Below are positions 3,529 to 20,152 of a stretch of DNA of 20,518 bases, piece after piece (the stretch's first letter is position 1; every line of letters begins with the position of its first letter). Under the pieces are notes generated by a model. The model did no database searches. It was not told the origin of the DNA and worked only from the letters and a program-made list of their open reading frames with translations. The stretch comes from a virus, in the IMG/VR virus record IMGVR_UViG_3300030104_005160, positions 4,477 to 24,994 of that record. One strand, 5' to 3'. The position numbers and the translations under genes are program-made.

Positions 3529-5862
3529 ATGGACGATCTAGCTTTATATCAAAGGCAACTCAACAGAGAACTAGGCCAAAGGACCGAGGCTAGAGACAGA
3601 TTAAAAAGGAATACATTAAAGGCAGAACAAAAAGGATACGCTAGTTCTGCTGTGTATAACCAAAAGATACTAAAGGATTCAACAGCAAAGATAGGTAACA
3701 GATTAGAGAAACGATTACATCATTTAAGAAGGGGTAATGCTGGAGTTGATGCAGTAATAATTGATAAGCATTTAAAAGATACAGATAAAAATGTAATAGC
3801 TCTATTAACTATGAAAGTAGCAATGGATGTATTAGGTAAAGAAAGCAAACCTAAGTTTGTTGAATTATCTATTGCAATAGGTAGAGCAATTGAAACAGAA
3901 TTAAGACTTAATCACTATCACAAGGAAGACCCTGAATTATATAGACGTGTAGAGGCTGGATTCCACCAAAGCACAGGGACAAGGCAAAAGGATACTGTAT
4001 TTAAAATTAGATTTAACGCCGAGGGATTAGAGTGGCATAGATGGAGTAATTCAACAGCACACAAAATAGGTGCCTGGTGCTTAGATGCTATTGGAGAAGA
4101 AACAGGGTGGTTAACCAAAGAAACTATTGTTGTAGGTAAAAGAAGTAAGAGAAGTATTATTAGATATAGTCAAGAATTTTTAAATTTAAAAGCTAATTTA
4201 TTAGAGCAAGCCGAGGGCTTGGCTTTCTTAGCTTGGCCGATGATATGTAAACCATTGATATGGAGCAATGAAGATCTAGGTGGATACATAACAGAAGCTA
4301 TCCATCGTATGCACCCTTTAGTTAGACAGAAAGGAGGATTGCAGCATATTAAACAGGGGGATATTCCCATCCAAACACTTAACAACATTAACCATGTTGC
4401 TTTTAGGATTAATCAACCTGTATTTCAAGTGCTTGACTGGGCTTTAACCACTAAACAAACTATTGGTAAGTTCAGAGTAGAAGAAGCAAAACCAGACCCT
4501 AATCCACCATCACCAGACTGCACACCAGAGCAGCTCAAAGCCTATAAAAAAGATAAAAGGCGCATTAAAGACAACAATGCTCAAATCGAACAAAAGAATT
4601 GGAGATCTATTGAACTACATTATGTAGCCAATAAGTTTAAGGATGAAAAAGCTATCTATTTTCCCCACTCGTTCGGGTACCGAGGACGGCTTTATTCTCA
4701 AACTACTTCTTTATCACCTCAAGGGACTGATACAGAAAAGGCACTTCTTTATTTTGTCGATGAAGGTCCAGTCAATGAATATTGGCTTGCATGGACCGTA
4801 GCAACAACTAAGGGTCTGGATAAGAAAACTCACCAAGAAAGGGTTAATTGGACTAGAGAAAACATTGAAAGAATCACAGCCATAGGGTCTGATCCTATTG
4901 GTGCATATGATCTTTGGGAAGATGCTGATGAGCCGTGGTGTCATCTTGCAGCCTGTATAGAGTATTTTTTATGCTGTATCAGTTGCACTAAGAGCCGAAG
5001 CGGTTTGCCCTGTGGACAGGACGCTACTGGAAGCGGGATTCAACATCTATCAGCTATGACTCTAGACGCTGAAAGCGCTTTAAAGTGCAATGTTTTACCA
5101 ACACAAATACCCTCTGATTGCTACAAAATAGTAGCTGATAATAGTCTTCAGTATATCTCTGATCAATCAGTCCATAAATACATCACACGGAAAATAACCA
5201 AAAAGGTTTGCATGTGCATACCTTACGGACTGACTAAAACAAGCGCTCGTACATATATACGAGAGGCATTAAAAGAAACATCAATCGACTTAAGCGTAAA
5301 GGGACGATTGACTGAGATTACTGAAGCTATTTACGACAAGTCAGTACCAGAAATATTTGCTGGTCCTGTCGAGGTTATGAAATGGATTCAAAAGGCAGCA
5401 AAAGAAATCATTAGTCAAACAGACACCATCACATGGACTACTGCTTCAGGGTTCAATGTTGTTCAAAACCTAAGACTAAGTTTATCTAGCCGAGTCCAAA
5501 CACGATTAATGGGAGCTGTTGTTAGTTGCCAGGTTGGTGAACGATGGGGTGGTCCTGATGTCAAACATCATGTCTCAGCATTAGCGCCAAATCTGACACA
5601 CAGCAACGATAGCTCGCTAATACACCTGACTTTTGCTTACTGGGATGACAAGCCTTTTCAATCAATACACGATTGCATACTTGTTAGGTCTTGTGATATG
5701 GATGAAGCTAAAGATGCAATTCGTATGCACTTTGTAGAAATCTATAAAGCACCAGTATTAGAAGATTGGGCCAATCAAGTAGGAGTCGAAGTTCCACAAG
5801 GTCTTATAAAAAACACCTTGGATTTGGAAAAAGTAAACGATTCTGATTATTTCTTTTGTTAG
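3529..5862 (+). CDS. T7-type single-subunit DNA-directed RNA polymerase
   Basis: This 777-residue protein (T7 gp1 is 883) transcribes the middle and late phage genes. The catalytic signature is complete. The first metal Asp is D498 in GQDATGSGIQHL. R554, K558 and Y566 in RKITKKVCMCIPYG have exactly the spacing of T7 R627, K631 and Y639. The second metal Asp is D715 in SIHDC. The block FPHSFGYRGRLYSQ matches the T7 FPYN-x-DWRGRVY region, and APNLTHSNDSS follows the probable promoter-specificity loop. The N-terminal domain is Lys/Arg-rich and helical, and is shorter than in T7. The first half is markedly more AT-rich than the second. The gene lies behind promoter P2 and the 170-aa protein. Its promoters in this genome are not evident to me. 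Confidence 0.97.
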   Translation: MDDLALYQRQLNRELGQRTEARDRLKRNTLKAEQKGYASSAVYNQKILKDSTAKIGNRLEKRLHHLRRGNAGVDAVIIDKHLKDTDKNVIALLTMKVAMDVLGKESKPKFVELSIAIGRAIETELRLNHYHKEDPELYRRVEAGFHQSTGTRQKDTVFKIRFNAEGLEWHRWSNSTAHKIGAWCLDAIGEETGWLTKETIVVGKRSKRSIIRYSQEFLNLKANLLEQAEGLAFLAWPMICKPLIWSNEDLGGYITEAIHRMHPLVRQKGGLQHIKQGDIPIQTLNNINHVAFRINQPVFQVLDWALTTKQTIGKFRVEEAKPDPNPPSPDCTPEQLKAYKKDKRRIKDNNAQIEQKNWRSIELHYVANKFKDEKAIYFPHSFGYRGRLYSQTTSLSPQGTDTEKALLYFVDEGPVNEYWLAWTVATTKGLDKKTHQERVNWTRENIERITAIGSDPIGAYDLWEDADEPWCHLAACIEYFLCCISCTKSRSGLPCGQDATGSGIQHLSAMTLDAESALKCNVLPTQIPSDCYKIVADNSLQYISDQSVHKYITRKITKKVCMCIPYGLTKTSARTYIREALKETSIDLSVKGRLTEITEAIYDKSVPEIFAGPVEVMKWIQKAAKEIISQTDTITWTTASGFNVVQNLRLSLSSRVQTRLMGAVVSCQVGERWGGPDVKHHVSALAPNLTHSNDSSLIHLTFAYWDDKPFQSIHDCILVRSCDMDEAKDAIRMHFVEIYKAPVLEDWANQVGVEVPQGLIKNTLDLEKVNDSDYFFC

Positions 5863-6438: not shown

Positions 6439-7290
6439 ATGCCGAGGACAGCCCAACTGAAACTCGACGGAATGTTCGAGTATTCAGTAAAGAACCACTT
6501 CAGAAAGCAAAAGTCTTTCAGAACCACAATGTCGAGAATCCATAGGATCTTACATTCTGCTTCACCATCAACTCCAGTCAGGAAGCTGGGGAGCCGTGGT
6601 TGGTGGATAAATGTACAAAACCACATTTTAGAAACCGAGCAAATCGCAAACGGGACAATCAATCGCACGTTATCGGTTTGTAGTAAGGCAATGAATTTCA
6701 CGCTCGATTGTCAGTTGCATGAAACCAAGTGTCCAAAATATCCAAGGCTTCCAGAACCAGAGTCAAGAATGTTCTACTTCCCTAAAGAAGGAGTAGAAAA
6801 GCTTAAGTTCTATGCAGTGGATATCTACAACGATCAATGCCTTGCAGAAGCAATTGAGTTTTCTGCTTATACAGGATTAAGGCAAGGGGAATTACTAAAA
6901 CTCAAGCCTGAAGATATTGATTGGAATCTTGGATGTATATGGGTAGGAGGAAAAAAACACCCAACAAAAGCTAACAATGTAAGACAGGTTGATATTCATC
7001 CAAAGCTAGAAGAAATGATCCGTAATCGATTAAGCAATGAGTATCTCTTTGGGGATGACTGGCTTAACAAAGATCATCTTTATAGATGTTTCGTAAAGGT
7101 TAGAAGATTAGCTGGCTTTAATGAAGATTATGTATGGCACTGTTTAAGACATAGCTATGGAACATGGTTGGGAGAAGTGACACACCCAAGACAGATCATG
7201 GCGTTAATGGGTCACAAAAATATTGAAACAACTTTAAAGTATTGCAAAATAACAGATAAGGCCCGTAAAGAGGCTGTTCTGAGTATATGA
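6439..7290 (+). CDS. int: tyrosine recombinase / phage integrase
   Basis: This 283-residue tyrosine recombinase would catalyse site-specific integration of the phage genome. The full catalytic set is visible: R148 in AYTGLRQGELLKL, a beta-hairpin Lys in GGKKHPTK (172, 173 or 177), H234 and R237 in HCLRHSYGTWL, H259 in LMGHKNIETTLKY and the nucleophile Y268. The N-terminal 110 residues hold the core-binding helices and a basic start. No separate arm-binding domain is obvious, and the length is at the short end for phage integrases. It sits two bases after the winged-helix gene and about 120 bases before a tRNA-Leu-like segment, the standard int-att arrangement. P-SSP7-type cyanopodoviruses are known to carry such an integrase and a tRNA-Leu match, though stable lysogeny in culture has been hard to show. 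Confidence 0.95.
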   Translation: MPRTAQLKLDGMFEYSVKNHFRKQKSFRTTMSRIHRILHSASPSTPVRKLGSRGWWINVQNHILETEQIANGTINRTLSVCSKAMNFTLDCQLHETKCPKYPRLPEPESRMFYFPKEGVEKLKFYAVDIYNDQCLAEAIEFSAYTGLRQGELLKLKPEDIDWNLGCIWVGGKKHPTKANNVRQVDIHPKLEEMIRNRLSNEYLFGDDWLNKDHLYRCFVKVRRLAGFNEDYVWHCLRHSYGTWLGEVTHPRQIMALMGHKNIETTLKYCKITDKARKEAVLSI

Positions 7291-8787: not shown

Positions 8788-10372
8788 AGACTCTATCCCC
8801 GTTCAAAGTCACCAGCCATGTCCTAGTTGTCCAAGTAGTGATGCTTACAGCATTTACAGCGATGGACACGGCTTTTGTTTTAGTTGTGGGTATCACTCAC
8901 CATCTGACGGATCTAATCAAACACCATCATCAAAAGGTGTGGGGTTTTTTGAATATGAAGGCGAATTTGCAGCTATCAAATCAAGGCGAATCACCGAGGA
9001 AACTTGCAGAAAATTCAATGTCAGGGTCGAAGCTACTGGCCGAGCTATACGCTTCCCATATACCTCTTCATCCAACAAGGTCATTGCGTACAAGGAGAGG
9101 ACGAAGGAGAAGGAACACTATTGGAAAGGTAAAAACACTGATACGAGACTGTTTGGACAGAATCTTTTCGGTGGTGGAAAAACGCTGGTAATTACCGAAG
9201 GCGAACTCGACAGCCTATCGGTTTGGGAAGCAAGGCCAAAATGGCCAGTAATGAGCATTTGTAATGGGGCAAAAGGGGCATATAAAAACCTCTCTGCCCA
9301 GCTCCCACATCTACTCAAATTTGAGGAAATTATTCTCATGTTTGATACAGATGTAGCAGGGAAGGAAGCAGCCGAGGAATGTGCTTCTTTATTCCCTGCA
9401 GATCAGATATTCATTGCTGATCTTGGACAATATAAGGATGCAAGTGAAGCCCTACAAGCTAACGATGCTGAGGCAATTAGGCAGGCTATTTGGAACAAGA
9501 AGAGCTACTCCCCTAAAGCAATTATTGATGGAAGATCTTTATTTGATCTAGTCAATAAACCCCTTCATGGTAAGGATGCTGATTGGCCCTTTCCCTCTCT
9601 TAATGAGGTTACTGGAGGGCTAAGACTAGGAGAGCTGGTCGTATGGACCGCAGGCTCAGGAGCTGGTAAATCAACCGCAATTGGTGAGACTTGCCAGGCT
9701 TTAGTAGATCAAAATTTCACTTGCTGTTACATCGCTCTAGAAGAATCAGTTCAAAGGCAAGCTCTCCGATTGATGACAGTAAAGGCCAATAAACCTTTAC
9801 ACCTAAATAATGAAATACCAGATGATGAACTACGGAAAGCTTTTGATGCAAGTGTTGGTAGTGGAAAAGTTTATCTTCGCTCTGGGTTTGGAAGTGTTGA
9901 TCCCGATCATCTACTTAATGACATCCGCTTTGTTGTTAAAAATCACAACGCTCAATTCGTAATTATCGATCATCTTTCGATATTACTGAGTGGAAATGAG
10001 AATGATAACGAGCGAATAATGATAGATAAGGTGATGACCAGGCTTAGAAGCTTTGTCGAAGAAGTTGGCTGTGGAATGATTCTTATTTCACATTTAAGAA
10101 GGGCACAATCTGATAAAGGATTTGAAGATGGAGCTGCAATTAGTTTGTCAGCATTAAGAGGATCCAGTTCTATTGGTTGTCTTGCAGATATATGTATAGG
10201 ACTCCAAAGAAACATATCGGCTGGAGACAATATGAGCGAATTAGTAGTAATTAAGAACCGATTTAATGGTTCCTGTGGACCAGCAGGGATACTTAATTAC
10301 AGCAAAGAAACAGGAAGATTAACTGAAATCACTACACCACCAAAATCTACAGAAAACTATGGAGACTTCTAA
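8777..10372 (+). CDS. primase-helicase, T7 gp4-like
   Basis: This 531-residue bifunctional protein (T7 gp4 is 566) primes lagging-strand synthesis and unwinds the fork as a ring hexamer. The N-terminal zinc-binding domain has C15, C18, C34 and C37. The TOPRIM primase domain shows ITEGELDSL (139-147) and MFDTDVAGKEA (188-198). The RecA-type helicase domain begins near residue 265, with Walker A GSGAGKST (293-300), Walker B FVIID (394-398) and ISHL with H439 (motif H3). The C-terminus is acidic and ends YGDF, like the gp4 tail that binds the polymerase. The ATG at 8777 is chosen because it keeps the zinc domain intact. The gene overlaps the 40-aa gene upstream and the thioredoxin-like gene downstream (14 bases). 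Confidence 0.96.
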   Translation: MNHEDSIPVQSHQPCPSCPSSDAYSIYSDGHGFCFSCGYHSPSDGSNQTPSSKGVGFFEYEGEFAAIKSRRITEETCRKFNVRVEATGRAIRFPYTSSSNKVIAYKERTKEKEHYWKGKNTDTRLFGQNLFGGGKTLVITEGELDSLSVWEARPKWPVMSICNGAKGAYKNLSAQLPHLLKFEEIILMFDTDVAGKEAAEECASLFPADQIFIADLGQYKDASEALQANDAEAIRQAIWNKKSYSPKAIIDGRSLFDLVNKPLHGKDADWPFPSLNEVTGGLRLGELVVWTAGSGAGKSTAIGETCQALVDQNFTCCYIALEESVQRQALRLMTVKANKPLHLNNEIPDDELRKAFDASVGSGKVYLRSGFGSVDPDHLLNDIRFVVKNHNAQFVIIDHLSILLSGNENDNERIMIDKVMTRLRSFVEEVGCGMILISHLRRAQSDKGFEDGAAISLSALRGSSSIGCLADICIGLQRNISAGDNMSELVVIKNRFNGSCGPAGILNYSKETGRLTEITTPPKSTENYGDF

Positions 10373-10661
10373 GGCTCACAAGATTATCTTATTTAAAAAA
10401 AAAGATTGTAAACCTTGTGATATGGCTATTGAGTCCTTGGATTCAGTTCTTTATGCCTATAAAGAATATGAACCTTATATAACAGTTTTACAAAAAGAAA
10501 ATCATCCAGCTTTATTAGAAGCTTACAAAGTTAATTTATTTCCAACTGCCTTAGTTCTCGATTATGAATCCGAGGAAATTACAAGAGCTGTTGGCGGTAA
10601 AGTTTTAACTCCCCGATGGTTTCAAAGAGCCTTAAGAACTATCCACAATCATAGAAAATGA
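10359..10661 (+). CDS. thioredoxin/glutaredoxin-like protein
   Basis: This 100-residue protein has the thioredoxin fold signature. A beta strand (KIILFKKKD, 8-16) leads into the redox motif C17-K-P-C20 at the start of a helix, and the cis-proline loop is FPT at 61-63 followed by a strand (ALVLDYE). It ends with a basic helix. The gene overlaps the primase-helicase by 14 bases and the DNA polymerase by four (ATGA), so all three should be made together. In T7 the host thioredoxin is the polymerase processivity clamp. Here a phage-coded thioredoxin-like protein sits directly before the polymerase, so it could fill that role, or it could reduce the phage ribonucleotide reductase encoded downstream. 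CKPC, rather than the thioredoxin CGPC, leaves glutaredoxin-like activity open. Confidence 0.82.
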   Translation: METSKAHKIILFKKKDCKPCDMAIESLDSVLYAYKEYEPYITVLQKENHPALLEAYKVNLFPTALVLDYESEEITRAVGGKVLTPRWFQRALRTIHNHRK

Positions 10662-13658: not shown

Positions 13659-13881
13659 ACACTCACCCGATCACTACAAAAGAGGAAGGATAGAAGTATG
13701 GGATTTCATAGCTGATAAAGACCTAGATTACTTTTTAGGTAATGCTATTAAATATATTTGTAGAGCTGGATTCAAAGACGGCGAAACAAGAGTAGATGAT
13801 CTTACAAAGGCCAGAGTTTATATCTCCAAAGCAATAGAACTAAAACCTCAACCTCCCTTATACCATGACGAATGTTCCTGA
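13651..13881 (+). CDS. DUF3310 protein, nucleotide-kinase-like (T7 gp1.7 relative)
   Basis: This 76-residue protein matches the DUF3310 pattern. It has SPDHYKRGRIEVWDFI near the start (4-19), then FLGNAIKYICRAGFKDG (29-45) and a C-terminal helix with KARVYISKAIE. Short DUF3310 proteins are common in phages, and the domain is related to the core of T7 gp1.7, described as a nucleotide kinase. This copy has only the core domain and may not be active alone. It overlaps both neighbours by a few bases and sits with mazG and the reductase genes, which supports a nucleotide-metabolism role. Confidence 0.8.
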   Translation: MTKHSPDHYKRGRIEVWDFIADKDLDYFLGNAIKYICRAGFKDGETRVDDLTKARVYISKAIELKPQPPLYHDECS

Positions 13882-14254
13882 TTTACTAGGTCAAGCGCTC
13901 CAATTCCGAGTAGCTAATGATCAACCCATAGGCCAATTTACTGGACCTAATATGTATCTCCAGAGAAAATTAATCTCTGAAGAATACAATGAATTTTTAG
14001 ATGCACATACCAAGTGTGCGTTATATCCAAACACTACTATATATAAAGAAGCCTTATTAAAAGAATTAGCTGATTTAGTCTATGTTGTTTTTCAATATGC
14101 AGCTACAGCAGGCTTTGAATTAGATGAAGCTCTAGACAGAGTTCATAATTCTAATATGAGTAAATTAGTTAAAGGTAAACCCGTAAAAGATGAGACTGGA
14201 AAAGTAATGAAAGGTCCAAATTATAAACCACCCTATCTAGAGGATATTGTTTAA
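13865..14254 (+). CDS. mazG: MazG-like nucleotide pyrophosphohydrolase
   Basis: This 129-residue protein is an all-alpha NTP pyrophosphohydrolase of the MazG type. The metal-binding helices show ISEEYNEFLDA with E39, E40 and E43, and KELADLVYVV with E67 and D70, the EExxE and ExxD pattern. The tail KGPNYKPP is common in phage versions. It would hydrolyse nucleotides to monophosphates and feed the reductase and polymerase. Cyanophage MazG was once thought to lower ppGpp, but published enzyme work points to dNTP hydrolysis instead. It overlaps the DUF3310 gene by 17 bases, and the reductase alpha gene begins one base after its stop. Confidence 0.88.
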   Translation: MTNVPDLLGQALQFRVANDQPIGQFTGPNMYLQRKLISEEYNEFLDAHTKCALYPNTTIYKEALLKELADLVYVVFQYAATAGFELDEALDRVHNSNMSKLVKGKPVKDETGKVMKGPNYKPPYLEDIV

Positions 14255-14255
14255 T

Positions 14256-15638
14256 ATGTCTAATTTAATAGCAAGAACAGGACGCGTTCAGAGCTGGATA
14301 GATAACCCTGAATCACGTCTTCCAGTCAGTTGTACTGTATTTAACGTATCTGACAGTATGGAAGGTCCAGAGGGTATTCAGGCTTCGTGGGTCTTCGCAA
14401 GTCACGCATTAAGATATGGGGCTGGGTGTGCAATTCATTTATCAGATTTAAGACCTCAAGGAACAGAAACCAAGAAAGGAAAAGATACTTTAGTTGCATC
14501 TGGGCCTGTATCATTTGCAAAAATATATTCTCAATTAAATGAGACATTAAGGCGTGGGGGCACATATCGCAACGGTGCAATTTGCTTGCATTTATCGCTG
14601 GGTCATGCGGATATTAATGAATACATTACAGCGCCAAGATCAGATCTCCCCTGGGCTAAAAGATGTGTAGATATCAATCAAGAGTTATGGAATCAAGCTT
14701 CAACTGAAACTAAAACTTTATTACTTAGAGGTATTCATAGCGGTGATATTTGGTTAAACAAGATACGCTATGATCGTAGTGGTAAACAAATATTTGGTAA
14801 TGTTTGCTTAGAAATTTTCATCAGGTCAAGGGGCACATGTTTGCTTGAGCATGTTCAATTAGGAGCTTGTACAATAGAAGATATTCCTAAAGCTTATGTA
14901 GAAGGAATGACTGAATTATGTGAGTTACATAGAACTACAGGAGTAGGAGATTCTGGAGAGTATTTAACACCCGAAGAGGATAGGCAAGTAGGTTTAGGAA
15001 TCTTAGGGTTAGCAAATTGTCTTAGATATCACAAGGTAACTTATAAAGAATTTGGTGAAGCATTAAGAGATCTAAATAACGGTATGGTAGTTTCACAGAC
15101 TACTGCTGGTTTATTAGCAAGAGCTTTTGATGTTGGTATTCAAAAAGCTAGTGTAATTGCTAGGACTCATGGTATGCAAAGAGCTTTCACAATAGCTCCT
15201 ACAGCATCATGTAGTTATAAATATAAAGACCTTAAAGGTTATACAACAACACCTGAAATAGCACCACCAATAGCGAGGACAGTAGACAGAGATAGCGGTA
15301 CTTTTGGAGTTACATCTTATGATTATGGAGATGTAGAAATAGCCTCAGAAGTTGGCTGGGATAATTATAAATTAGTAGCTGATGAATTAATGCGCCTCTA
15401 TAACAATAGCGGATTAATGCACGGTTATAGTTTTAACACTTGGTCGGATGTAGTTACATACGATGAGGCATTTATAGATGACTGGCTAAAGAGTCCACAA
15501 ACTTCAATGTATTACGCATTACAAGTTACACCTGAAACACAAAGAAAAGACGATGCCTCTGCCGTGTTGGATGAGGATTATAAAGACATCTTCGATTTAG
15601 AAGAGCCATCAATATTATGCGCTGGATGCGCTGAATAA
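14256..15638 (+). CDS. nrdA: ribonucleotide reductase alpha subunit (cyanopodovirus-type class I, minimal)
   Basis: This 460-residue catalytic subunit converts ribonucleotides to deoxyribonucleotides. By E. coli NrdA equivalence it has C26 (C225) in PVSCTVFN, N182, C184 and E186 (N437, C439, E441) in GNVCLEI, and C195 (C462). It also has FTIAPTAS, Y419 and Y420 (Y730/Y731) in TSMYYALQV, and the C-terminal redox pair C455 and C458. It lacks an ATP-cone and most of the N-terminal domain. Such short cyanopodovirus enzymes were first annotated as class II, but reannotation of the P-SSP7 protein placed it in class I. The tyrosine pair and the beta-like neighbour support class I here. The ATG at 14256 is preferred to a TTG at 14247 that would overlap mazG. 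Confidence 0.92.
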   Translation: MSNLIARTGRVQSWIDNPESRLPVSCTVFNVSDSMEGPEGIQASWVFASHALRYGAGCAIHLSDLRPQGTETKKGKDTLVASGPVSFAKIYSQLNETLRRGGTYRNGAICLHLSLGHADINEYITAPRSDLPWAKRCVDINQELWNQASTETKTLLLRGIHSGDIWLNKIRYDRSGKQIFGNVCLEIFIRSRGTCLLEHVQLGACTIEDIPKAYVEGMTELCELHRTTGVGDSGEYLTPEEDRQVGLGILGLANCLRYHKVTYKEFGEALRDLNNGMVVSQTTAGLLARAFDVGIQKASVIARTHGMQRAFTIAPTASCSYKYKDLKGYTTTPEIAPPIARTVDRDSGTFGVTSYDYGDVEIASEVGWDNYKLVADELMRLYNNSGLMHGYSFNTWSDVVTYDEAFIDDWLKSPQTSMYYALQVTPETQRKDDASAVLDEDYKDIFDLEEPSILCAGCAE

Positions 15639-15641
15639 ATA

Positions 15642-16361
15642 ATGTCAAGCTATTTAAAACTTATAGAAAGAAAAAGAAAATGGACCCCCCAGGCTTGTAA
15701 TAAAGGTGAGCTTAGAGCTGGAAGTGAAGATAGTATTTTTAGAGCGCTTGCTCTTAGGTGTTTAGAATTACCAGTTAAGGAATTACTACAGCAGGGATTA
15801 GAAAAAGATTTACCAGATAAACATGGAGTAATGGAGTCTTTAATCTCCAATCAAAAAGATGAAGATAAGCATGATCTTGGGTTTCAGTATGTTGTTGATG
15901 CTCACGGTACTATCGATAAGTATGAAAGAGAAGCCCAGAATATACTTAAAGTCTGGATGGAATCTCCAGAGCATCCCATTCTCAAAGCAGCCATATTAGA
16001 GAGGAGTGTATTCTTTGTACTCCTACCTTTCTATAGGTTTAATGGAGATATTGGCATGAGAGGGTTGTCTTCAGAAATTAGCCGTGATGAGGTCATCCAT
16101 GTTGGGATTCATGGGATGGTTGCCCATGACTTAGGTTTAAAGCAACCTGAACATTTAAACAAACTTAGAAGAGCAACTGTAGCTTGGGCTATGGATGGAT
16201 TAGGTAGTAATGAAAATAAATATATCGATAAAGACTTTTGGATGAATCAATCTGATTCTCTCTATCACAGAGGGAAAGCAGAAGGGTTAAAGGATACACA
16301 AAGAAGTCGTATGCCTTCTTTCTTTGAGACATCGAATGTAAATCTCCCGTCATATGGATGA
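15642..16361 (+). CDS. nrdB: ribonucleotide reductase beta-like subunit, Phe in place of the radical Tyr
   Basis: This 239-residue protein fits the class I small subunit, which generates the radical used by the alpha subunit. All six metal ligands can be placed: E42 in RCLELP, E74 and H77 in DEDKH, E120 in ILERSVFF, and E150 and H153 in ISRDEVIH, the typical RDExxH word. The residue four after H77, where E. coli has Y122, is F81. Phe at this site is also seen in class Ic enzymes, which use a Mn/Fe centre rather than a tyrosyl radical. At 239 residues it is much shorter than E. coli NrdB (376). It begins three bases after the alpha stop and overlaps the 62-aa gene by eight bases. The tail is Ser/Pro rich and ends with Tyr (LPSYG). 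Confidence 0.85.
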   Translation: MSSYLKLIERKRKWTPQACNKGELRAGSEDSIFRALALRCLELPVKELLQQGLEKDLPDKHGVMESLISNQKDEDKHDLGFQYVVDAHGTIDKYEREAQNILKVWMESPEHPILKAAILERSVFFVLLPFYRFNGDIGMRGLSSEISRDEVIHVGIHGMVAHDLGLKQPEHLNKLRRATVAWAMDGLGSNENKYIDKDFWMNQSDSLYHRGKAEGLKDTQRSRMPSFFETSNVNLPSYG

Positions 16362-19795: not shown

Positions 19796-20152
19796 ATGAA
19801 AAAACTTTCAATAGCTTTAATAGCTTCTTTATTTTCAACCCCAGCATTTGCTGGACTTTATGTGAATGTAGAATCTAATGCTAATTACACTGGTTCAGAT
19901 TACACATCTAGAGCTACAGACCTACACGTAGGTTATGAAAATAATCTTGGAGATTTGGCTTTCTACGCTCAAGGCGGTAAAACAATTAATGCTGCTGATG
20001 GGCTTGATTCAGAGTCTAATTTCTCTGGGAAGTTTGGTGGTTCTATCTCTGCTACAGATAAACTTGGTGTCTATGGTGAAATCTCTTTCTCACAAGTTAA
20101 GGAAGACGATAACAACTATGGATCGAAATTAGGATTAAAATATTCTTTTTAA
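19796..20152 (+). CDS. signal-peptide, outer-membrane beta-barrel-like protein (118 aa)
   Basis: This 118-residue protein begins with a clear Sec signal peptide (MKKLSIALIASLFSTPAFA, cleavage after residue 19 before GLYVN). The mature part has alternating hydrophobic strands with Gly and aromatic residues, Asn/Asp/Ser turns, and words such as GDLAFYAQGGK, LGVYGEISFSQV and LGLKYSF. The C-terminal Phe after alternating hydrophobics fits the outer-membrane assembly signal. About four to six strands are visible, too few for a full porin unless it oligomerises. It starts directly after the hli stop (TAAATG), and psbA follows after four bases, so it is in one operon with photosynthesis genes. A host-envelope change during infection is the best guess. 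I do not recognise a named family. Confidence 0.8.
   Translation: MKKLSIALIASLFSTPAFAGLYVNVESNANYTGSDYTSRATDLHVGYENNLGDLAFYAQGGKTINAADGLDSESNFSGKFGGSISATDKLGVYGEISFSQVKEDDNNYGSKLGLKYSF

Follow-up and report, generated by a model that had tools for sequence, protein, structure and literature searches.

A clade Ø-type ribonucleotide reductase beta subunit without the radical tyrosine in a T7-like cyanophage

How can the beta subunit of a ribonucleotide reductase (RNR) initiate a radical when the site of the class Ia/Ib radical tyrosine is occupied by phenylalanine? The question is raised by a small gene in the window (the whole 20,518-nucleotide stretch of DNA analysed here, which belongs to a viral record of 24,994 bases). 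A preliminary description, made from the sequence, took the gene for an RNR beta subunit with complete metal ligands and proposed, with a reserve about the cofactor that proved justified, that it belongs to class Ic and uses Mn/Fe. Our analysis supports the first proposal and not the second. We read the protein, with a probability of about 0.88, as the clade Ø (Cyano SP) RNR beta of a T7-like cyanophage, which would bind two metals and keep its oxidant on the metal centre, with no tyrosine involved.

The beta gene and its alpha partner

The open reading frame runs from ATG to TGA and begins three bases past the stop codon of the alpha gene; the opposite strand is full of stops in the one frame translated. 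The genes and alpha residues that matter for its interpretation are as follows.

10359..10661, + strand: thioredoxin-like protein with a CKPC motif (PHROG 22 'thioredoxin domain', 1.9e-06; Pfam Thioredoxin_2, 2.6e-05, just under cut-off)
13865..14254, + strand: MazG-like nucleotide pyrophosphohydrolase, next upstream in the cassette (Pfam PRA-PH, 1.5e-07, and MazG, 1.8e-04; PHROG 671, 2.4e-31)
14256..15638, + strand: RNR alpha, catalytic, 460 amino acids from the ATG at 14256 (463 from the TTG at 14247), without ATP-cone (7urg_A; Pfam Ribonuc_red_lgC)
14805..14807, + strand: alpha C187 (463-residue numbering), the thiyl-radical Cys in N-V-C-L-E, aligned with 7urg (87 of 87 alphas)
15510..15515, + strand: alpha Y422-Y423, the radical-transfer Tyr dyad (87/87, and 86/87 plus one X)
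15618..15629, + strand: alpha C458-A-G-C461, the C-terminal CxxC redox pair (86/87 and 87/87, in a sample biased to long tails)
15642..16361, + strand: RNR beta, radical-initiating, ferritin-like, Cyano SP / clade Ø type, 239 amino acids (PHROG 6799, R2 fold, identity to Cyanophage SS120-1)

In a PDB sequence search the alpha matched 7urg_A with an E-value of 2.4e-194 over residues 3-441, residue 3 of the 460-residue form pairing with residue 7 of 7urg, which is the alpha structure of Synechococcus phage S-CBP4. Clade (class) Ø has the S-CBP4 alpha, analysed by cryo-EM, as its reference structure (Burnim et al. 2022, eLife, PMC9531940, which we cite throughout from excerpts). The window alpha has the features of that clade: no ATP-cone, C187, Y422-Y423, the pair C29/C198 and the pair C458/C461. 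Since the set of 87 alphas was restricted to rows that extend almost to the C-terminus of the alpha in the window, and so favours CxxC, we draw no frequency of CxxC versus CxC from it. The thioredoxin-like protein may possibly be the reductant of the alpha tail.

The order of the cassette is DUF3310, MazG, alpha, beta, small open reading frames and portal, and the genes around it are what a T7-like cyanophage would have, with a single-subunit RNA polymerase, a gp2.5-like protein, a primase-helicase, a DNA polymerase, an exonuclease, an integrase and a head-tail adaptor. Among named phages the closest is the Prochlorococcus phage Cyanophage SS120-1 (a Banchanvirus), which has the same gene order, with a gene in the MazG position followed by alpha, beta and portal. 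Several other genes of the window deserve mention in their own right. The integrase (6439-7290; PHROG 1, 1.1e-39) lies in a phage that is T7-like; a small protein with a signal-peptide-like start (19796-20152) matches the Pfam Phage_OMP beta-barrel (PF24653, 1.3e-42) and PHROG 417, a family of no known function; and 882-1841, near the start of the window, matches PHROG 7245 'anti-restriction protein' (3.2e-64). ARAGORN found no tRNA genes in the window.

From end to end the beta matches PHROG 6799 (E 1.1e-108), a family labelled 'ribonucleotide reductase class Ia beta subunit'; with the Pfam model of the class I small chain it reaches E 0.012, below cut-off. A tblastn search of 50,697 phage records gave any match in 111 and coverage of at least 80% in 56; the 56 listed with that coverage are cyanophages or uncultured marine phages. 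The SS120-1 homologue (AGG54544.1), 240 residues long, is 73.8% identical over 100% of the length, numbers H77 and F81 as the window beta does, and otherwise shows only residue differences. Identity to the P-SSP7 homologue is 48.3%, which, with the same ligand pattern (Harrison 2019, PMC6370689, likewise cited from excerpts), bears out the suggested kinship with the reannotated P-SSP7 reductase. The family spans 229-251 residues (139 distinct homologues, ends trimmed to match), so that the picture of a compact marine-phage reductase also holds. The claim of a size well below that of known class I betas holds when the protein is set against classical class I, for which Burnim et al. give a mean of 346 residues, but 239 residues is normal for the published family, whose mean is 240 (PMC9531940). 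The class Ia label of PHROG 6799 is misleading because the radical Tyr is missing and the second sphere differs; several alphas of the family are annotated as class II in RefSeq phage records.

AlphaFold2, run with an alignment of 66 of the 67 representatives (L179, which lacks the N-terminus, was omitted), predicts a helical bundle with a mean pLDDT of 89.5 and a pTM of 0.87. Helices 29-53, 63-88, 112-134 and 137-163 carry E42, E74/H77/F81, E120 and E150/H153, respectively, which is the R2-type arrangement of a Glu plus ExxH, twice over, that characterizes the class I beta fold. In the model F81 lies on the same helix as H77, one turn further on. At the level of predicted fold, helix position and conservation, none of the three outcomes that the preliminary description named as refuting it occurred. 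The best PDB match in Foldseek is the Mn/Fe R2 of Chlamydia (E 6.4e-4), with modest TM-scores of 0.53-0.62 for the three matches under E 0.001. When 997 chains were re-aligned with VIA, the best 50 were all RNR R2 proteins (Z 18.5-20.2, 215-230 residues, 3.0-3.4 Å; the best match has Z 20.2 with 217 residues aligned at 3.0 Å). Prediction and both comparisons, of which VIA was the clearer, agree on the ferritin-like, R2-type fold.

Sequence comparison with class I betas, by itself, is close to noise. Searching PDB sequences with the single beta, phmmer returned nothing at E 10; a profile of the beta alignment gave a meaningless result with E. coli NrdB and a non-significant one with NrdF, at probabilities under 1%. 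This, together with the term 'ferritin-like' that Burnim et al. still use in the excerpted text (PMC9531940), leaves some room for the idea that the protein is another ferritin-like di-metal protein, such as an oxidase or a metal store, that lies beside alpha by chance. We regard this as highly improbable, since, apart from the structural matches just given, an adjoining downstream beta was found in 78 of 80 loci collected with the alpha as bait (full in 73, partial in 5), the two others being contigs in which the alpha match is followed by only 165 and 3 bases; the Tyr dyad of alpha needs a beta partner; the Tyr near the beta C-terminus is present in all 194 homologues described below; and Microcystis phage Mic1 keeps both genes although they are far apart. 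In Mic1 (L083, MN013189.1, 61615-62385 and 74733-76055) about 12 kb separate beta from alpha, and its beta, 36% identical to that of the window, is the most divergent observed. Family, fold and alpha partner thus uphold the identification as an RNR beta subunit.

Metal ligands and position 81 across the family

Homologues were taken from 80 viral loci found with the beta as bait, 80 found with the family alignment (the contigs being partly shared), 16 genome loci and 7 named phage records. These gave 139 distinct full-length betas, including that of the window, after 13 partial rows (contig ends, frameshifts, an intron) had been dropped, and the 80 alpha-bait loci, of which the 2 without beta and the 5 with a partial one were left out of the counts, added 55 distinct betas, for a total of 194. 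The positions of interest in the window gene, with their state among these 194, are:

15681..15683, + strand: W14 codon, candidate equivalent of E. coli W48 (Trp in all; the sole invariant Trp before E42)
15765..15767, + strand: E42 codon, metal ligand 1 (Glu in all)
15858..15872, + strand: D73-E74-D75-K76-H77, second-sphere Asp73 and first ExxH (D73, E74 and H77 in all)
15882..15884, + strand: F81 codon TTT, site of the class Ia/Ib radical Tyr (Leu 149, Phe 45, Tyr 0)
15999..16001, + strand: E120 codon, metal ligand (in all)
16086..16100, + strand: D149-E150-V-I-H153, second-sphere Asp and second ExxH (D149 and E150 in all; H153 in 193, X in one)
16311..16358, + strand: C-terminal tail, residues 224-239, M-P-S-F-F-E..N..L-P-x-Y238-G, with Y238 the candidate equivalent of Y356 (low pLDDT, conserved)

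Translation places E42, E74, H77, E120, E150 and H153 where the preliminary description had them, and F81, encoded by TTT, four residues after H77. The complete ligand set that it reported is invariant throughout the family save for the one X at H153; D78, W105, W182, E229 and P236 are also invariant in all 194, along with W14, the two second-sphere Asp residues and Y238.

Position 81, by contrast with the ligands, alternates between Leu and Phe and is never Tyr. Among the 73 full betas from the alpha-bait loci, which had not been picked for likeness to beta, 68 have Leu and 5 Phe. Phe is encoded by TTT in 33 cases (the window included) and by TTC in 12, and a change of one base would turn either codon into one for Tyr. 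A quick maximum-likelihood tree, built from 108 rows with column 81 omitted and containing two long rows (L083 and L129), requires at least six changes between Phe and Leu, three of them forced by starred branches; it puts the window beta in a Phe branch and that of P-SSP7 in the Leu sub-branch. The simplest reading of these sequences is that the residue at position 81 would serve as a hydrophobic plug, with the oxidant staying on the metals.

A beta without its Tyr could also be degenerate and non-functional, the point in favour being the lack of a Tyr at the radical site. The ligands are, however, invariant, the entire family lacks the Tyr, and the gene is under purifying selection, as judged from dN/dS (NG86) of 0.03-0.12 in the five comparisons that yielded a value out of six with relatives L001, L003, L006, L007, L016 and L011 (dS was high for L007 and L016, near saturation for L007; L011 gave no value). 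We consider the chance of a degenerate protein negligible. A second Tyr that takes over the radical was likewise considered. None of the four metal helices carries a Tyr that is invariant in the 194 homologues, and the best kept, Y83 (176 of 194), is the sole well-kept candidate. We rejected it because Phe takes its place in 15 homologues and Leu in 3; one of these, L003, which is 90% identical to the window beta, has a Phe at 83 as well as at 81.

Neither Phe at position 81 nor the small size is new: both were published for the family in 2019 and 2022, and the window adds one more sequence. According to the excerpts of Harrison 2019 (PMC6370689), the overlooked beta of P-SSP7 (YP_214198.1) lacks Tyr122 and has a first sphere of E42, E71, H74, E117, E147 and H150 and a second sphere of D70 and D146, a pattern that fits no known subclass, so that a new one was suggested, labelled 'If' in Table 4; the window beta shares the first sphere (E, E, H, E, E, H), the two second-sphere Asp residues and the missing Tyr. 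Burnim et al. modelled a clade Ø relative (UniProt M1TVU9) with the identical F81 at i+4 from H77, and in the excerpts of their paper clade Ø betas have Phe or Leu at this site and a terminal Tyr without an alpha-binding extension (PMC9531940). In size, place directly after the minimal alpha, ligand motif, Phe/Leu at the residue four past the His and a chain that ends right after the C-terminal Tyr, the window beta is like these proteins, with no difference of substance.

Sixteen of the loci (L168-L183) come from genome contigs binned as Planctomycetota, Bacteroidetes, Chloroflexi, Euryarchaeota and others, and 15 of the 16 carry cyanophage portal or replication genes. All 16 have a full or partial beta; fourteen have the portal gene of the window phage, L172 has its DNA polymerase and exonuclease genes, and L171 has alpha alone; the full-length betas fall among phage rows of the tree. 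Because cyanophage genes adjoin in 15 of 16 loci, the 'cellular' clade Ø members of the present scan are probably phage contigs, and we suggest that the non-cyanophage bacterial members of Burnim et al. may be phage as well.

Some members of the family are interrupted. Group I introns (Rfam RF00028, 86.5 and 84 bits) were found in the betas of two different contigs:

L180 (= L295), 4145-4381: group I intron, RF00028
L324, 1152-1362 (Rfam span), minus strand: group I intron, RF00028

Both lie between the codons of D149 and E150, inside the metal-binding DExxH, and the L180 frame reads through once 237 bases are removed. They are in keeping with what is known, because RNR genes are the most often interrupted phage nucleotide-metabolism genes in the excerpted survey that we take to be Dwivedi et al. 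2013 (PMC3653736). Four further betas are frameshifted: those of S-CBP4 (KC310804, L085), P-GSP1 (L184), P-RSP2 (L088) and L252. All four breaks lie in runs of A or T, three of them at the same Lys-Lys-Phe-Trp codons. Because each fits a one-base difference in run length, homopolymer sequencing errors are the probable cause; slippery-site frameshifting was rejected in favour of this simpler explanation, though it is not disproved.

Class Ic or another cofactor

With the Tyr missing, the obvious comparison is class Ic, the reading favoured in the preliminary description, in which the subunit would, like that of Chlamydia trachomatis, depend on a Mn(IV)/Fe(III) cofactor. Several observations point this way. 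The window beta shares with C. trachomatis NrdB (1syy, 4d8f) the R2 fold (Z up to 19.9), a Glu as first ligand and, four residues past the His, a Phe in place of the radical Tyr. A Mn/Fe R2 of Chlamydia also ranks first in Foldseek. In PDB sequences, the only matches of a first family profile under E 0.05 were three Chlamydia R2 proteins (E 0.022-0.038), which fell to E 0.11-0.2 with a larger family profile; in this weak match (E 0.11), H77 and F81 lie, ungapped, under the His and Phe of the Chlamydia HTHTF segment. The first ligand is Glu in classes Ic and Id and Asp in Ia and Ib, according to the excerpted Table 3 of Harrison 2019 (PMC6370689), so that the first sphere of the window beta is the class Ic set but equally that of the Mn/Mn class Id.

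Other observations speak against class Ic. Class Ic has Glu followed by Asp in the second sphere (Tables 3 and 4 of the same excerpts), whereas the position of the Glu is taken by Asp73 in all 194 homologues. C. trachomatis NrdB has 346 residues against 239, a C-terminal extension that is absent after the terminal Tyr of the window beta, and a Tyr five residues before the Glu of the last ExxH, where all 194 homologues have Asp or Glu. We take this Chlamydia Tyr to belong to the activation relay. The excerpted published trees place Cyano SP apart from class Ic (PMC6370689). The fold does not decide the subclass, because entries of classes Ia, Ib, Ic, Id and Ie all lie within about 2 Z units in VIA. 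Class Ic membership was therefore set aside as unproven on account of the second sphere, and we think it unlikely; the fixed Asp73, the separate trees and the fact that Leu is commoner than Phe at position 81 all speak against the assignment proposed earlier. A Mn/Fe cofactor in the window beta is possible, but no more.

Alternatively, the family may form a separate subclass, in which a beta that lacks the Tyr uses another cofactor, be it the Mn/Mn of class Id, Fe/Fe or some new pair of metals. The first sphere fits class Id as well, the second sphere is unique (the 'If' row in the excerpted Table 4; PMC6370689), Phe and Leu interchange at position 81 to the exclusion of Tyr, and no NrdI-type flavodoxin appeared among the 17 of 50 window open reading frames scanned with Pfam and PHROG. 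On the other side, class Id enzymes retain the Tyr, as the same excerpts state. We offer this reading tentatively, the odds being somewhat against it. In the excerpts of Burnim et al. the radical mechanism is called unclassifiable without biochemical data, the label 'ferritin-like' is retained, and the metal was not assigned because the proteins can be unstable without it (PMC9531940); we found no activity, metal content or EPR signal for any member of the family in the open-access literature.

The further suggestion that the cofactor could suit iron-poor oceans is not borne out as something special to the window protein. A 2026 preprint (PMC12918982, excerpts) finds Cyano SP anti-correlated with iron and attributes this to host distribution and intracellular metal pools.

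A proposed radical path and what the family may mean

What does not depend on the choice of metals, a Tyr-free initiator with a metal-centred radical, is well supported, and Harrison 2019 and Burnim et al. arrive at a like picture. In the mechanism that we propose, E42, E74, H77, E120, E150 and H153 would hold two metal ions in a minimal R2-type bundle, and the oxidizing equivalent would reside on the oxidized metal centre instead of a tyrosyl radical, since the Phe at position 81, where most relatives have Leu, is redox-inert. From there the radical would travel through candidates that exist for each class I step, W14 and Y238 in beta and then Y423, Y422 and C187 in alpha. The beta candidates for Trp48, Asp237 and Tyr356, namely W14, D149 and Y238, were assigned by sequence and are each present in 194 of 194 homologues.

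The C-terminal tail, predicted with pLDDT below 50 at residues 224-231 and 234-239, would dock beta onto alpha. Its 16 residues rank 23 of 224 in conservation, and F227, F228, E229, L235, P236 and Y238 are nearly or fully invariant in the 194 homologues, while only one residue follows the terminal Tyr in 168 of them and two to five in the rest. The motif that docks to alpha may hence precede the transfer Tyr, the reverse of the class I order; the excerpts of Burnim et al. also hold that clade Ø subunits may interact differently (PMC9531940).

Taking these elements together, the clade Ø beta might be its own kind of initiator, one that combines a metal-only oxidant, a second-shell Asp, a pairing other than Mn/Fe, a reversed tail with an F-F-E..N..L-P grip before the near-last Tyr, and a wholly viral distribution in which the cellular members are phage contigs in bins. 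We put this combination forward as a doubtful proposal at present.

To the published description the present analysis adds the count over 194 sequences, in which the ligands are fixed, Phe and Leu are interchangeable and Tyr never occurs; the conserved motif that comes ahead of the terminal Tyr in the tail; and evidence for phage DNA as the source of the genome-bin members of our scan. The cofactor of clade Ø matters because this is the smallest RNR architecture reported and has been argued, in the excerpted text of Burnim et al., to be basal to classes I and II (PMC9531940). It bears on which metal the host has to provide for a lytic cyanophage, and on the origin of oxygen-dependent synthesis of DNA precursors.
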